This document shows, piece after piece, positions 48,412 to 55,242 of a DNA stretch of 64,000 nucleotides. The notes under the pieces are model-generated. The model did no database searches and had not been told where the DNA came from. It was given only the letters and a program-made list of their open reading frames with translations. Made by a program: the position numbers and the translations under genes. The first letter of the stretch is position 1. The number at the start of each line of letters is the position of its first letter. This stretch comes from Candidatus Acidulodesulfobacterium ferriphilum (lineage in GTDB: Bacteria > SZUA-79 > Acidulodesulfobacterales > Acidulodesulfobacteraceae), in NCBI GenBank assembly GCA_004195035.1, contig SGBD01000001.1:478368-542367 (forward strand). The letters run 5' to 3'.

Positions 48412-48828
48412 ATGTCTATTGCCCCGCGAATTATTTTTTATGATATAATCTTTATTGTGAATAAAATATTTGTGGTTCATGAACATCATGCAAGCCACTT
48501 ACATTGGGACTTAAGGCTTGAAGAAAACGGGGTTTTAATTTCTTTTGCCTTACCTAAAGAACCTCCGTTAGAACATGGAAAAAGGAACCTTGCGATAAAA
48601 GTTGAAGATCATCCGCTTTCTTATGCAAATTTCGAAGGCATAATTCCCGAAGGTCATTACGGCGCAGGAACCGTTAAAATTTGGGATAACGGGACTTATA
48701 GAACCATAAAAAAAGACAATTCTAAGTATATCCTTAATTTTAACGGTGAAAAAATGGACGGTGAATATACCTTGCTAAAGTTCGATAAGGCAGGAGAAAA
48801 TCACTGGCTATTTTTTAAAAATAAATAA
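48412..48828 (+). CDS. Stand-alone LigD-type 3'-phosphoesterase
   Basis: Matches the phosphoesterase module of bacterial DNA ligase D, which removes 3' phosphates or ribonucleotides at DNA ends. The family residues His25, His31, Asp33, Arg35, His67 and Tyr71 all align in HEHHASHLHWDLRLE and VEDHPLSY. No ligase, polymerase or Ku gene is in the window, so it may act alone or with distant partners. A GTG at 48457 (after a TATAAT at 48444-48449) could be the true start, giving about 123 residues; the ATG is used here. Confidence 0.87.
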   Translation: MSIAPRIIFYDIIFIVNKIFVVHEHHASHLHWDLRLEENGVLISFALPKEPPLEHGKRNLAIKVEDHPLSYANFEGIIPEGHYGAGTVKIWDNGTYRTIKKDNSKYILNFNGEKMDGEYTLLKFDKAGENHWLFFKNK

Positions 48829-48967: not shown

Positions 48968-50113
48968 ATGAAAGCCGATTTCTTAATTTCTAAAAAGGAA
49001 CAATTTAGAAAGTTAATTTCATATGGTCAAAGCCCGTGGCTTGACAATATATCGAGGTGCCTGATAGACTCCGGCGAACTTGAGCAATTGGTTAAAAACG
49101 GCATAATTACCGGAATAACATCCAATCCTTCTATTTTTGAAAAATCTATAAATTCCGGAAAATGCGGATACCCTGAGTTAATTAAAAAACTCTCGTCGGA
49201 AAAATTAGATTCCTTTACCATATACGACATCATCACGCGCGAAGACATCAAAAAAGCCGCTAAAATCCTTTTGCCCGTTTTTAAAAAAACCGGCGGAAAC
49301 GACGGATTCGTCAGCATAGAGGTCCCCCCCAATATCGCGACAAATATTGAAACATCGATAAGCGAGGCCCAAAGAATATTTGCGCTTATAAACGAAAAAA
49401 ATGTTCTGATAAAAATACCCGCCACAAAAGAAGGACTTGAAATTATCCCGATACTGCTGTCCAAAGGCATAAATGTTAATGTTACATTGATGTTTTCGGT
49501 AAACCACTATACTCAAGTGGCAAATGCTTACATAAAAGGCATTAAAAAGGCTTCAGAAAATGGAATAGATTTAAAAAACATTCATTCCGTCGCAAGCATT
49601 TTTATAAGCAGGATTGATACAATGGTGGATAGACAATTGGAGGAATTGATTAAAAATACAAACGACTCTTCCATAAAAGAAAAAATTACAAATTTGTTGG
49701 GAAAAGCCGGCGTCGCAAATGCAAAAATTATTTTTAAAAAATACGGCGATATTTTTGATAACGGCGGCGAATTTGCCTCCCTGAAAAAAAAAGGCGCTAA
49801 TATTCAGAGGCTTTTATGGGCAAGCACAAGTACGAAAAATCCGGCTTATTATGACTTAAAATATGTCGAACCTTTAATCGGTAAAAATACTATAAATACT
49901 CTGCCCGATGAAACTATCCTGCATATTGCGGAACATGGAAATTTGATTCCGGAAACCGCATCCGAAGATATTGATTATTCGATGCATATAAACGAAGAAT
50001 TATTGAAAATAGGCATAGATTTAAATGAGGTCGGCGAAAAATTGCAATTGAACGGGGTTAAATCGTTTGAAGATTCCTATGAAAAGCTGCTTAAATCGAT
50101 TGAGAATATTTAA
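48968..50113 (+). CDS. tal: Transaldolase, long (actinobacterial-type) form
   Basis: Transfers a dihydroxyacetone unit between sedoheptulose-7-phosphate and glyceraldehyde-3-phosphate. The 381 residues fit the long Tal class. TSNPSIFEKSI (51-61) is the phosphate loop and Lys149 in NVLIKIPATKEG is the Schiff-base lysine. HSVASIFISRIDT follows. A strong ribosome-binding site, AAGGAG, precedes the ATG. The transketolase gene follows after 47 bp in the same direction. Confidence 0.95.
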   Translation: MKADFLISKKEQFRKLISYGQSPWLDNISRCLIDSGELEQLVKNGIITGITSNPSIFEKSINSGKCGYPELIKKLSSEKLDSFTIYDIITREDIKKAAKILLPVFKKTGGNDGFVSIEVPPNIATNIETSISEAQRIFALINEKNVLIKIPATKEGLEIIPILLSKGINVNVTLMFSVNHYTQVANAYIKGIKKASENGIDLKNIHSVASIFISRIDTMVDRQLEELIKNTNDSSIKEKITNLLGKAGVANAKIIFKKYGDIFDNGGEFASLKKKGANIQRLLWASTSTKNPAYYDLKYVEPLIGKNTINTLPDETILHIAEHGNLIPETASEDIDYSMHINEELLKIGIDLNEVGEKLQLNGVKSFEDSYEKLLKSIENI

Positions 50114-50160: not shown

Positions 50161-52095
50161 ATGGAAATTAATAAAGGGTTTGGGAGGAAAGAATTGTCGG
50201 GAGAAGAAATCGAATTTTTAAAGAATTTTACAAAAAAATGCAGGGGAGATATTTTAAGAATGACCACGCTCGCCGCTTCAGGGCACCCCGGCGGTTCGAT
50301 GTCCTCAATCGACATATATGCCGTTTTATACGGATTTTGCAATGTTGACCCGTCAAACCCGTTTAAACAAGACAGGGATAGAATAGTGATAAGCCACGGA
50401 CACACAACGCCGGGCGCTTACTCCGCTCTCGGCAATTACGGATTTTTCGACATAGAAGACGCAATTTTAAATTTTAGAAGCGCGGGGTCTCCTTTTGAAG
50501 GCCATGTCGAAAAAACGGTTCCCGGAATAGAATGGAATACCGGCAATCTTGGACAGGGTCTTTCGGCCGCCTGCGGATTCGCATTAAATTCAAGATTGAA
50601 TAATTTAAAATATAATGTTTACTGCGTTATGGGCGACGGAGAGCAAACAAAGGGCCAGATAGGCGAGGCAAGAAGATTTGCGGTAAAATACAAATTAAAT
50701 AACCTGACTGTCATAGTAGATAAAAACGGACTGCAAATCGGCGGAAAAACATCCGAAGTAATGCCCGATAATATAAAAGAAAATTTTGAGGCGGATGGGT
50801 TTCATGTCATAGAAATAGACGGGCATAATTTTAACGAGATATATTCTGCTGTGAAAAAAGCTAATGAATTTGCCTCCCCTGTTGTCATTATCGCAAATAC
50901 GATAATGGGAAAAGGTGTATCCTTTATGGAAAATCAGGCTAAATATCACGGCGCGGCACTAAGTCCGGCTGATTGCAAAAAGGCGTTGGCCGAACTTGGA
51001 GAACCGGAAAATATCGATGAACTCGGAGGTAAAAAGAAATTAGGTTTGCCTATTAAGCCCTTAAAAGAAAAGAAAAACAATTTTTTGATTTCAAACGCCG
51101 GCAATAAAAACATAATTTATACAAGGGAGAAAAACACGGACAATCGTTCTGCGTTCGGCAACGCGCTGTACGATATAGCAAAAAATTATAAAGAACAAAA
51201 TAATTCCCCGAATATCCCTTTTGCCGTGTTCGACTGCGATTTAGAAGGCTCGGTTAAAACCGGCGCGTTCAGGAATGCCTTCCCCGATAATTTCTTCGAA
51301 TCGGGCATAGAGGAACATAATACCGCCGTTATTTCAGGCGCGCTGTCAACCGAAAACATCCTTACCTTCTTCGCCGACTTCGGCGTCTTCGGAATAGACG
51401 AAGTTTATAACCAGCAAAGGCTGAACGATATAAATCACACAAACTTAAAGGTGGTATGCACTCATTGCGGAATAGATGTAGGAGAAGACGGCAAAACGCA
51501 TCAATGCATCGATTATTTCGGCGTGATTAACTCAACATTCGGGTTTAAGGTCATAATCCCGGCAGACCCGAATCAAACGGACAGGGCAGTAAGGCATATT
51601 GCTTCTAATGCGGGCAATTTTGCGCTGATTATGGGGCGGTCGGTTATTCCGGTTATATTGGATGAGGAGAACAAGCCATTTTTCGGGGATGGTTATAATT
51701 TTAGGTACGGAAAAATGGATATTATCAGAAATGGAAGGGATTTAACTATAATATCTTCGGGAAATATGCTGACGCACGCGTTAAAAGGATACGAAATGCT
51801 TAAAAAAGACGGAATAAACCCGATGCTTCTAAATGTTTCCTGCCCGAGCGACATAGACACGGAAGACTTGCGTCTTGCCGCAAAAACCGGCTTCATAGTT
51901 ACGATAGAAGACCACAATATAAAAAACGGCATTGGGACGGTTTTAGGGTCGATGCTTGCCGAGAACGGAATTTCCGTAAAATTTAGAAAACTGGGGGCTA
52001 AATTCTACAGTTCTTCGGGAAAGCCCGATGAGTTATACAAATTGGCAGGTTTATCGCCGCAGGATTTATATAATTTTGTTAAAAAAGAAATATAA
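50161..52095 (+). CDS. tkt: Transketolase
   Basis: Thiamine-diphosphate enzyme moving two-carbon units between sugar phosphates. The 644 residues include SGHPGGSMSS (40-49), the cofactor motif beginning GDGEQTKGQIGEA (158-170) and the Glu-containing GIEEHNTAVISGAL of the pyrimidine domain. It is a single chain rather than the split N/C form of some archaea and bacteria. Its stop is only 5 bp from the zwf stop on the opposite strand. Confidence 0.95.
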   Translation: MEINKGFGRKELSGEEIEFLKNFTKKCRGDILRMTTLAASGHPGGSMSSIDIYAVLYGFCNVDPSNPFKQDRDRIVISHGHTTPGAYSALGNYGFFDIEDAILNFRSAGSPFEGHVEKTVPGIEWNTGNLGQGLSAACGFALNSRLNNLKYNVYCVMGDGEQTKGQIGEARRFAVKYKLNNLTVIVDKNGLQIGGKTSEVMPDNIKENFEADGFHVIEIDGHNFNEIYSAVKKANEFASPVVIIANTIMGKGVSFMENQAKYHGAALSPADCKKALAELGEPENIDELGGKKKLGLPIKPLKEKKNNFLISNAGNKNIIYTREKNTDNRSAFGNALYDIAKNYKEQNNSPNIPFAVFDCDLEGSVKTGAFRNAFPDNFFESGIEEHNTAVISGALSTENILTFFADFGVFGIDEVYNQQRLNDINHTNLKVVCTHCGIDVGEDGKTHQCIDYFGVINSTFGFKVIIPADPNQTDRAVRHIASNAGNFALIMGRSVIPVILDEENKPFFGDGYNFRYGKMDIIRNGRDLTIISSGNMLTHALKGYEMLKKDGINPMLLNVSCPSDIDTEDLRLAAKTGFIVTIEDHNIKNGIGTVLGSMLAENGISVKFRKLGAKFYSSSGKPDELYKLAGLSPQDLYNFVKKEI

Positions 52096-52100
52096 ATGAA

Positions 52101-53600
52101 TTAATTATTATTCCACACCCTGCCATCGGCATTAATCAGGTCATCTGCTTCTTTCGGCCCCCATGACCCGGCTTCATAGTTTGGAAATGCGGGAGGTTCT
52201 ATTTTTGACCACCCGTTTATTATGGATGTGATAAATTGCCATGCGATAAGCGTATCGTCGTATCTTGCAAAAAGAGTCTGATCGCCGACAATTATGTCAT
52301 ATATAAGTCTTTCATAAGCTTCCGGGGGAGAAAGTTTAAATGACGATTTATAATTAAATACCATATTTACAGGTTCTATATCCATTTTAAACCCGGGCGT
52401 CTTGGCGCCGAAATTTATCGATATGCCTTCATTCGGTTGAATCGTAATTATTATAGAATTTTGTTTAATTTTTTCCATTCCGTCTTTTCCGTAAAGGCTG
52501 TAAGGCAGCTTTTTAAAAAACACCGCTATCTCGGTTTTATGCTTTTTTAATCTTTTACCCGACCTCAGGTAAAACGGAACCCCCGCCCATCTATAATTAT
52601 CTACGAAAAGCCGTAAAGCCGCATATGTATCGGTATTCGAATTCTGCGGTATTCCTTCCTCTTCTTTGTAGCTTATTACAGGCTTATTGGCGATAAATCC
52701 TCTGTCGTATTGCCCCCTGACTACAAAATTTTTTACATCGTTTAAACTGAAAGGCCTTATGCTTTTCAATAGTTTCGCCTTCTCGTTTCTTATATCGTCG
52801 GCATGGAAAATAGCGGGCGGTTCTATTGCAACGGATGATAATAACTGCATCATATGATTTTGCATCATATCCCTTATAATGCCGGATTTATCAAAATAGC
52901 CGGCTCTGAACCCTACCCCGATAGGTTCCAATGCCGATATTTGTATATGGTCTATATATTTATTGTTCCACAGGGGTTCAAAAATAGCGTTCGAAAACCT
53001 GAAAGCAAATATATTTTGAACGGTTTCTTTTCCAAGATAATGGTCTATCCTGTAAACTTCTTCTTCTTTAAACACGGAAAGAAGTTTACTGTTTAAATCT
53101 TTCGCGCTTTCGTAATCGTAGCCAAACGGCTTTTCGACGACAATCCTTGAAAAGTTATCCCCTTTAAATTCGCTTGAAGTAAGATTTGCGCTTCGAATGC
53201 CGTCAATTATTTTAATATAAACATTCGGCGGGGTGGAAAGGTAATAAACGATATTTTTAGGTATATTATATTCCGAAGCCTTAGATTTAACGAATTTGCC
53301 CAATTCCTTATAACTCGATTCATCATCGTATTTTGACTTCAGATAAAATATATGCTTTGAAAAATTTAAAAAATCATCTTCATTTATGGGTTTTTTCCTG
53401 CAATTCGCATTCAAAGCATCAAGGATTGTTTTTCGGAAAGTTTCATCGTCCATACCAGTCCTGGCAAATCCTGCAATGAAAAAACTATCGGGAAAAAACC
53501 CGTCCTCCCATAAGCTGTATAACGCGGGAAATATTTTAATATGCGCCAGATCTCCGCTTGCCCCGAAAATTACGATTATAGAAGGTTTTAGTTCTGCCAT
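52101..53600 (-). CDS. zwf: Glucose-6-phosphate 1-dehydrogenase
   Basis: First enzyme of the oxidative pentose-phosphate route. The 499 residues have the cofactor segment FGASGDLAH (12-20), EKPFGYD and the active-site RIDHYLGKETVQNI. Length is normal. It is convergent with tkt and followed upstream by a cyclase-family gene 68 bp away, then gnd. A 6-phosphogluconolactonase gene of the known families (DevB or Pgl) is not seen. Confidence 0.97.
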   Translation of the reverse strand: MAELKPSIIVIFGASGDLAHIKIFPALYSLWEDGFFPDSFFIAGFARTGMDDETFRKTILDALNANCRKKPINEDDFLNFSKHIFYLKSKYDDESSYKELGKFVKSKASEYNIPKNIVYYLSTPPNVYIKIIDGIRSANLTSSEFKGDNFSRIVVEKPFGYDYESAKDLNSKLLSVFKEEEVYRIDHYLGKETVQNIFAFRFSNAIFEPLWNNKYIDHIQISALEPIGVGFRAGYFDKSGIIRDMMQNHMMQLLSSVAIEPPAIFHADDIRNEKAKLLKSIRPFSLNDVKNFVVRGQYDRGFIANKPVISYKEEEGIPQNSNTDTYAALRLFVDNYRWAGVPFYLRSGKRLKKHKTEIAVFFKKLPYSLYGKDGMEKIKQNSIIITIQPNEGISINFGAKTPGFKMDIEPVNMVFNYKSSFKLSPPEAYERLIYDIIVGDQTLFARYDDTLIAWQFITSIINGWSKIEPPAFPNYEAGSWGPKEADDLINADGRVWNNN

Positions 53601-53668: not shown

Positions 53669-54295
53669 TTATTTCTCCAGTATAACCCTCGCAGGGGCTC
53701 CGTTAGAATCTTTTATCTTAACCGGAAGCGCAATAATCTTGTAATCTCCAGCCGCAACTTTAAATAAATTAAGTCCTTCTATTATAACAACCCCGGCGCC
53801 AAGTAAAGTTTTATGGGTATCGTGTCCGACATGGTAACCCTCTACAGAAAGATAATCCACCCCAACCAGTATAACCCCATTTTCAACCATATATTTTGCG
53901 GCTTCAGGATTTACGCAAACATAATCGGTATGGAAATTATTATCGCCTGCGTTTATCCATTCCGAATTTTTCGTCTTAAAAAGAAGCCTGCCGCCCCTTT
54001 TTATATTCAACGGCTCAAGAAACTCTTTAGATATGGGCGAAATCCCCGCGGGAACTTCTATAACCCTGCACGGGCCTATCAATGTATCTAAGTTAAATTT
54101 ATCTATTCCTGCGCCGCCTTCTATAAAATGGCGCGGCGCATCCATATGCGTCCCTGTGTGAACGCCGCAAGTGATTTTGCTGTTATTCGAAGCGGCTCCT
54201 TTTTTTATATCCGAATAGTTGTCGATTTCTATTGCGGGGTCGCTCGGCCAGTGAAGCATCCCGTCCTCAATATCCATACTTATATCTATAAACAT
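53669..54295 (-). CDS. Cyclase-family metal-dependent hydrolase
   Basis: A 208-residue protein of the cyclase/kynurenine-formamidase family (PF04199 type). The metal-binding motif HTGTHMDAPRHF gives His46, His50, Asp52 and His56, with the C-terminal GVDYLSVEGYHVGHDTHKTL segment typical of the family. Known members hydrolyse formylkynurenine, isatin or related amides and lactams. Between zwf and gnd it could serve another small ester, such as a lactone, but this is a hypothesis. The start ATG has no strong ribosome-binding site. Confidence 0.88.
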   Translation of the reverse strand: MFIDISMDIEDGMLHWPSDPAIEIDNYSDIKKGAASNNSKITCGVHTGTHMDAPRHFIEGGAGIDKFNLDTLIGPCRVIEVPAGISPISKEFLEPLNIKRGGRLLFKTKNSEWINAGDNNFHTDYVCVNPEAAKYMVENGVILVGVDYLSVEGYHVGHDTHKTLLGAGVVIIEGLNLFKVAAGDYKIIALPVKIKDSNGAPARVILEK

Positions 54296-54348: not shown

Positions 54349-55242
54349 TTATTTATAAATAGGATGTCCCCCGAACTGATGCCGCAGCGCCGCAAGCATT
54401 CTGGCGGCGAATGAATTTTCCTGCCTCGACCTGAACCTCATAAATACCGAATCGGCTAAAACCGGTGCCGGAACGGCTTTGTCTATCGCTTCTTTCAGCG
54501 TCCATCTTCCCTCGCCGGAATCGTCAACAATAGGTTTCAGATTATTAAGTTCAGGGTCTTCTTTAAGGGCGTTATGCGCAAGCTCGAGAAGCCATGACCT
54601 CACAACCGAAGCATGGTTCCATAGATCTGAAACCTTCTCCAGATTAATATCGAAATCGCTTGACTTCATTATCTCGAACCCTTCCGCATATGCCTCCATC
54701 ATGCCGTATTCTATGGCGTTATGAACCATTTTAACAAAATGCCCCGAACCGTGGGGACCCACATGCAGATAACCGTTTTCCGGCGCAAGCGTTTTAAAAA
54801 TCGGCTCGCAGTACTTGAAAGTTTCATCTTCCCCGCCTATCATAGAGCAGTACCCGTTTTTTAAGCCCCAGATGCCTCCGCTTGTACCGCAGTCCATAAA
54901 TTTAATTCCTTTTTCGCCGCAGAGTTTGGCTCTTCTTATAGAATCTTTATAGTAAGAATTGCCGCCGTCTATAATTATGTCGCCCTTTTGCGTATATTGC
55001 AAAACTTCGTTAAGCATATCGTCTGTAGGCTGACCGCTTGGAACCATAAGCCATACGACCCTGGGGGCCGTCAGTTTTCCTGCGAATTCTTTAACCGTGT
55101 TCGAACCGATTGCTCCTTTATTTATAACCATCTCTTCTTTGGAAACTGTCCTGTTAAAGACAACGACCCTGTGTCCGCCCTCTAAAAGTCTTAACACCAT
55201 ATTCATTCCCATCTTCCCGAGACCGATCATTCCAATTTCCAT
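54349..55242 (-). CDS. gnd: 6-phosphogluconate dehydrogenase, short form
   Basis: Oxidatively decarboxylates 6-phosphogluconate to ribulose-5-phosphate. The 297 residues correspond to the short GndA/YqeC class rather than the ~470-residue dimeric form. MIGLGKMGMNMVLRLLEGGH is the nucleotide-binding start, DCGTSGGIWGL the substrate loop, and HNAIEYGMMEAYAEGFE follows. Short forms often use NAD. It lies 53 bp after the cyclase-family gene frame and before the slipin pair. Confidence 0.95.
   Translation of the reverse strand: MEIGMIGLGKMGMNMVLRLLEGGHRVVVFNRTVSKEEMVINKGAIGSNTVKEFAGKLTAPRVVWLMVPSGQPTDDMLNEVLQYTQKGDIIIDGGNSYYKDSIRRAKLCGEKGIKFMDCGTSGGIWGLKNGYCSMIGGEDETFKYCEPIFKTLAPENGYLHVGPHGSGHFVKMVHNAIEYGMMEAYAEGFEIMKSSDFDINLEKVSDLWNHASVVRSWLLELAHNALKEDPELNNLKPIVDDSGEGRWTLKEAIDKAVPAPVLADSVFMRFRSRQENSFAARMLAALRHQFGGHPIYK

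Follow-up and report, generated by a model that had tools for sequence, protein, structure and literature searches.

Two unrelated families of 6-phosphogluconolactonase are known, DevB and YbhE, and sugar-lactone hydrolysis is the reaction of both the YbhE-type enzymes and SMP30/gluconolactonase. For aldonolactonase/SMP30 it is also given in the literature (PMC13406643). According to two further papers, 6-phosphogluconolactone hydrolyses spontaneously with a considerable flux and the enzyme mainly prevents side products (PMC4728180), and the gamma-lactone shows no spontaneous hydrolysis (PMC3148214). KynB is described as having two Zn bound by His50, His54, Asp56, His161 and Glu173, with His60 acting on the bridging water (PMC4243253).

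The window, by which we mean the whole 64,000-nucleotide stretch that was analysed, comes from the 1.87 Mb, 97.3% complete genome of Candidatus Acidulodesulfobacterium ferriphilum and holds a cluster of pentose phosphate genes (Table 1). The preliminary description placed a cyclase-family hydrolase between zwf and gnd, and this was confirmed: the protein matches PF04199 (Cyclase) with 89.1 bits as compared to a cut-off of 23.1 (4e-25, model positions 1-141 of 142), and both neighbours score over cut-off in TIGR00871 and TIGR00872. PF04199 is its only Pfam match, and the profile scan found neither PF01182 nor PF10282 in the protein. A Shine-Dalgarno-like AGGGGA can be read directly 5' of the ATG. 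The three genes are transcribed from one strand in the order gnd, cyclase, zwf, with gaps of 53 bp between gnd and the cyclase and 68 bp between the cyclase and zwf, and tal and tkt lie beyond zwf on the opposite strand. A stand-alone LigD 3'-phosphoesterase domain (window 48412-48828, plus strand) adjoins tal, and related loci long enough to include it show it next to tal/tkt again. From genome context and homology we infer, with a probability of roughly 70%, that the cyclase is a 6-phosphogluconolactonase (EC 3.1.1.31) of a new, non-orthologous type.

Table 1. Pentose phosphate cluster of the window, with the metal-site elements of the cyclase.
Feature	Position	Strand	Basis
PF04199 cyclase-family hydrolase, proposed 6-phosphogluconolactonase	53669..54295	(-)	ORF, 208 aa, ATG
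HTGTHMDAPRHF motif of the cyclase, with metal ligands H46, H50 and D52 and, by analogy, the catalytic H56	54125..54160	(-)	sequence
C-terminal part of the metal site, from H161 (53813-53815) to E173 (53777-53779)	53777..53815	(-)	alignment to BaKynB
zwf, glucose-6-phosphate dehydrogenase	52101..53600	(-)	TIGR00871 609.5 bits, cut-off 400.6
gnd, 6-phosphogluconate dehydrogenase (short, gnd_rel type)	54349..55242	(-)	TIGR00872 403.9 bits, cut-off 297.2
tal, transaldolase	48968..50113	(+)	NF002881 431 bits, TIGR00876 315.8 bits, both over cut-off
tkt, transketolase	50161..52095	(+)	NF004556 939.8 bits, cut-off 575

The arrangement is conserved within the phylum. The cyclase is present in 28/30 genomes (29 copies, the window's included), and the two genomes without it are 85% and 86% complete. 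Beside the cyclase there is a gnd in 29/29 copies and, on the other side, a zwf in 28/29, the single copy without an adjacent zwf (L032) lying at a contig end. Found in so many genomes with fixed neighbours, the arrangement is not a product of chance. The phylum copies outside the window's genome are 59-90% identical to the window's cyclase, as compared to 76-97% for gnd; the cyclase tends to change faster than gnd, yet its position is fixed.

The predicted model of the cyclase (67 sequences) has a pLDDT of 96 and a pTM of 0.91. It matched the 13 top-ranked structures, KynB and isatin hydrolase included, with Z 20.7-29.8 (8hmo 29.8, 3krv 29.5, Bacillus anthracis KynB 28.2 over 203 residues at 1.7 Å), and Foldseek gave a TM of about 0.9 to KynB. 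H46, H50, D52 and H56 align with BaKynB His50, His54, Asp56 and His60, and H161 and E173 with His161 and Glu173; D52 is kept in 66/67 sequences and the other five residues in 67/67. With its profile score, the HxxxHxDxxxH motif followed by the C-terminal His and Glu, and the predicted KynB/isatin-hydrolase fold, the window protein is filed in PF04199, and not as KynB.

In such a fold the two-metal site would be formed by H46, H50 and D52 on one side and by D52, H161 and E173 on the other. By analogy to KynB, H56 would deprotonate the water that bridges the two metals, and the resulting hydroxide would attack C1 of the 1,5-lactone made by Zwf with the ring oxygen leaving. The product, 6-phosphogluconate, would pass to Gnd, and the cyclase would in this way substitute for a DevB-type Pgl with which it has no kinship. 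No phosphate-binding residue was identified in the cyclase, and this counts against the lactonase reading.

The shared fold and metal residues, and the fact that the sole NCBIfam match is TIGR03035 (arylformamidase), could also mean that the protein is a kynurenine formamidase, KynB, lying in the operon by coincidence. This seems most unlikely. The TIGR03035 score is 147.5 bits as compared to an equivalog cut-off of 223.05, on which ground KynB identity was set aside, and five relatives linked to pentose phosphate or GDH genes score 134-159 and are below the cut-off too. Furthermore, the sequence is nearer the unassigned hydrolases 1r61 and 8hmo, and the conserved neighbourhood is without a tryptophan gene.

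The preliminary description had seen no known lactonase close to these genes, and the wider search bore this out. The DevB/NagB family PF01182 gave no match by profile search in the window's genome and was found in 0/30 genomes of the phylum, of which 19 have a completeness of 90% or more and a contamination of 5% or less; the same search was positive in 9/14 control genomes. A pgl/devB gene elsewhere in the genome, which had been named as the finding that would speak against the proposal, was thus looked for by PF01182 and not found. The YbhE family, PF10282, was searched in the window's genome alone, where it matches three partial stretches in two beta-propeller proteins, and one of these (469 aa) reaches 69.4 bits as compared to a Pfam cut-off of 21.7. 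SMP30 (PF08450) has no match in the window's genome, and its matches are scattered over 15/30 genomes of the phylum, 12 of them over cut-off, with up to 67 bits when summed in one frame. These matches would suit an explanation in which one of the beta-propeller proteins, or a classical lactonase so diverged that the models miss it, performs the step elsewhere in the genome, but we consider this highly improbable. The 469-aa protein also passes other propeller models (YNCE and cytochrome-d1), matches WD-type models as well, and reaches only 34.5 of the 370 bits required by the equivalog for YbhE-type 6-phosphogluconolactonase, and the best single PF08450 stretch in the phylum is at most 27.3 bits. 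The window's genome holds no convincing YbhE- or SMP30-type enzyme, and a classical Pgl elsewhere was set aside, with PF01182 and PF08450 absent and the PF10282 matches partial.

Cyclases of the same kind occur outside the phylum. A scan with one genome per species gave at least 80 loci. Of the 80 listed, 14 fall into the window's group, judging from gene order and an identity of 61-90%, and 66 are outside it; the neighbourhoods were searched for matches to the Zwf, Gnd, Tal and Tkt proteins of the window. Among the loci listed, Gemmatimonadota (L046, L047, L052, L059, L080) have the order cyc-gnd-zwf, Yonathbacteria (L086) has zwf-gnd-cyc, Nitrospira moscoviensis (L073) has cyc-zwf and Manganitrophaceae (L053) has cyc-tkt-tal. 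The pgl gene was tested for in 25/66 outside genomes. It was not found over cut-off in 8 of the 10 that have the cyclase near pentose phosphate genes, and it is present in 11 of the 15 comparison genomes; the Yonathbacteria genome, a single one of 0.7 Mb, has no pgl match. Conservation of the zwf-cyclase-gnd order in genomes lacking pgl had been put forward as a check, and the linkage is indeed kept in the phylum, and in different orders in Gemmatimonadota and the one Yonathbacteria genome.

The phylum of L046's genome made it possible to look at the replacement itself. In 249 Gemmatimonadota genomes searched for pgl, zwf and cyclase, pgl was found over the TIGR01198 cut-off in 62, zwf in 86 (83 over cut-off), and a cyclase of the pentose phosphate type, with an A2 score of at least 268 bits, in 23, a line for the linked cyclases that was set after seeing the score gap (next score 224). 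Counting pgl over cut-off, the 86 zwf genomes divide into 22 with a linked cyclase and no pgl, 58 with pgl alone, 6 with neither and 0 with both. All linked cyclases (22/22) share the strand of zwf at a distance of 0.88-2.13 kb, and a full gnd is found between the two in 19/20 fetched zwf-bearing loci, and also in L046 and L052. In L137:3283-4164 (G284) only a gnd remnant, about 110 bp and 49 bits, is present between cyclase and zwf. Where pgl is present it is often close to zwf, within 6 kb in 52/62 genomes, and in the 5 genomes fetched of the 6 with neither gene the zwf-gnd cluster lies at most 0.9 kb from a contig end. Matches to the pgl model below cut-off occur in 20/23 high-scoring cyclase genomes; as hidden lactonases these were rejected, since the six proteins checked (G030, G034, G105, G230, G237, G339) are all nagB, glucosamine-6-phosphate deaminase, by TIGR00502 and lie below the pgl cut-off.

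Other cyclases are found in the same phylum. Those grouped as gemOther have A2 scores of 214-224 bits and are not on zwf contigs. Loci L144-L151 make up a second distinct PF04199 clade (support 100), likewise not on zwf contigs, and the opposite strand of L148 and L149 carries a gnd-like gene some 2 kb from the cyclase. Both kinds of cyclase were observed in four genomes, G105, G156, G335 and G340.

The number of replacements was judged from trees. The Zwf tree contained 84/86 of the Gemmatimonadota zwf genomes (the fragments G186 and G098 excluded) and four outside rows, with a midpoint root. The 22 cyclase-linked Zwf form one clade (SH-aLRT 99) among pgl-bearing rows, and we therefore count one swap; a Fisher test of cyclase against pgl over the 86 genomes (p 2e-15) was for this reason rejected as independent evidence, and the pair test on the tree gave 1 pair and p = 1. 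The window's Zwf groups apart from the 22, with pgl-bearing rows (support 95). Forcing it into their clade made the tree 47 log-likelihood units worse with a p-AU of 0.033, a marginal value given the post hoc naming of the group, the odd letter make-up of the window's rows, the quick search and a model without mixtures. For the cyclase, the A3 alignment held the window and 66 of 80 fetched loci (7 from the phylum, 59 from outside), to which the tree adds 32 Gemmatimonadota rows. The free tree shows the cyclases of the phylum and of Gemmatimonadota as separate clades (99 and 100), but a tree joining them scores 16 units better (p-AU 0.73), and separate recruitment in the two phyla was not upheld. 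The cyclases of both phyla may share one origin, and since the window's Zwf stands apart from the clade of 22, two settings are probable for the swap, via recruitment or transfer of one cyclase type. The stand-in would have been placed next to zwf and gnd at least in the window's phylum and in one Gemmatimonadota clade, and the two differ in gene order and probably also in Zwf background.

Linkage to zwf and gnd together with a distribution complementary to that of pgl is suggestive of replacement, and there are two exceptions, N. moscoviensis (G038) and the Manganitrophaceae genome (G035), where a cyclase near pentose phosphate genes is accompanied by a genuine pgl, scoring 202 and 211.5 bits. 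The pgl of G035 comes after gnd-zwf, and the cyclase of that genome sits with tkt-tal-pgi. The N. moscoviensis genome carries four zwf genes, the cyclase-linked one among the two lowest-scoring, and at L073 a GH15 gene and a phosphoketolase are found nearby. Genomes with both enzymes would be accounted for if the cyclase were engaged in metabolite repair, removing the slow 1,4-(gamma) lactone or some other damaged compound that Zwf forms on the side, with the main step on the 1,5-lactone left to spontaneous hydrolysis or, where present, to DevB. Because the 1,5-lactone hydrolyses spontaneously with a considerable flux that could suffice (PMC4728180), and the gamma-lactone does not (PMC3148214), this explanation has some plausibility. 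We nevertheless regard it as unlikely, as the mutual exclusion with pgl in Gemmatimonadota, although one event, and a whole phylum without PF01182 fit a replacement better.

In Dehalococcoidia (L064:1682-2860 and L066:1256-2434) the cyclase is fused in frame to RpiB (PF02502 and PF04199, 392 aa), and the fusion has tal on one side and rpe on the other, L064 carrying a tkt in addition. The two genomes (G036, G037) gave no zwf and no gnd over cut-off. If this absence is real, the RpiB-fused cyclase is not a 6-phosphogluconolactonase, and these genomes, together with those that have both pgl and the cyclase, are the facts that fit the lactonase reading worst. Several relatives also lie beside unrelated genes, for instance PGA_cap, sulfatase, serpin and glycosyltransferases, and many of the other neighbours are unrelated too; in L048 and L081 (Anaerolineaceae) the relatives are directly 3' of a PGA_cap capsule-synthesis-like gene, surroundings that do not resemble sugar oxidation. 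It could thus be that the cyclase acts on another pentose phosphate intermediate or an unrelated substrate, and that it sits in the operon because of common regulation and not because of the missing step. This is unlikely, since the place beside gnd and zwf is conserved across different gene orders, no tested genome in which both adjoin the cyclase has a pgl over cut-off, and there are links to glucose-dehydrogenase-like, EDD-type and KDPG-aldolase genes.

These links are of several kinds. Glucose-dehydrogenase-like genes (PF16912, a domain-level name, two scanned neighbours reaching no NCBIfam equivalog cut-off) adjoin the cyclase in L056, L058, L061 and L089 by domain scan, and similar neighbours were found by tblastn in L074, L075, L083 and L096. 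The gene beside it encodes an EDD-type dehydratase in L104, a KDPG aldolase in L085 and, in L062, an enzyme of the MR/MLE family. A sugar lactonase would be expected to have partners such as the glucose-dehydrogenase-like, dehydratase and KDPG-aldolase genes. Among the GDH-linked loci only the genome of L061 (G040) was tested for pgl, and it has the gene. Annotation covered 33/46 of the close same-strand neighbours listed. Pentose phosphate or GDH genes are found 20 times at up to 300 bp from the cyclase (38.7 kb available), 11 times at 0.3-2 kb (204 kb) and 4 times beyond 2 kb (380 kb), an enrichment that carries a bias, since such loci were the source of the rpiB, rpe, pgi and GDH queries, and that counts L111, which has only generic alcohol-dehydrogenase domains. 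All 35/35 are on the strand of the cyclase, and 18/66 loci have one within 300 bp; with the window's zwf, gnd, tal and tkt as sole queries, 10/66 loci have a match within 2 kb.

The zwf/gnd-linked cyclases belong to a wider PF04199 group whose members probably hydrolyse sugar lactones. Whether the broad group, with its arylformamidase matches below cut-off, is as a whole a new family of sugar-lactone hydrolases seems to us evenly balanced. Its members would hydrolyse gluconolactone beside GDH-like genes and 6-phosphogluconolactone beside zwf and gnd, with DevB displaced in two or more settings, through transfer or through separate recruitment, and the RpiB fusion would point to a further sugar-phosphate substrate.

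For the window's cyclase, the proposal that it replaces 6-phosphogluconolactonase is supported by its genome context, that is, the linkage, the absence of PF01182 and the distribution complementary to pgl. That such a role would be new for the family agrees with the open-licence literature, in which nothing was found tying PF04199 to a sugar lactone or to 6-phosphogluconolactonase. If the proposal is true, it fills a hole in the central metabolism of a whole phylum and part of Gemmatimonadota, adds a third unrelated family to a textbook step, and gives a likely function to proteins whose sole NCBIfam match is an arylformamidase below cut-off.

Compared with known proteins, the nearest solved relatives of the cyclase are 1r61/3krv from Bacillus stearothermophilus and 8hmo from Bacillus smithii (35-39% identity, 193-199 residues, Z 26.5-29.8), which share its KTKNS motif and are metal-dependent hydrolases with titles that give no function; the literature search found no paper for 8hmo. 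The bacterial KynB structures (4co9, 4cog, 4cob) are similar over 203-204 residues (Z 27.6-28.2, 1.7-1.8 Å) and have in common with the cyclase the binuclear metal ligands, the catalytic His and an aromatic residue at W16 (KynB Trp20). The identity is 29-31%, however, the cyclase has N110-S111 where the aligned KynB (4cz1) has S-H, and its context is sugar metabolism, contrary to the tryptophan context of KynB. The YbhE-type Pgl (PF10282) and SMP30/gluconolactonase (PF08450) are beta-propellers, whereas the cyclase matches PF04199 only. The DevB-type 6-phosphogluconolactonase (PF01182, TIGR01198) is of an unrelated family and absent from 30/30 genomes of the phylum, but it is the enzyme that the cyclase resembles in its proposed reaction and in its place in the operon.
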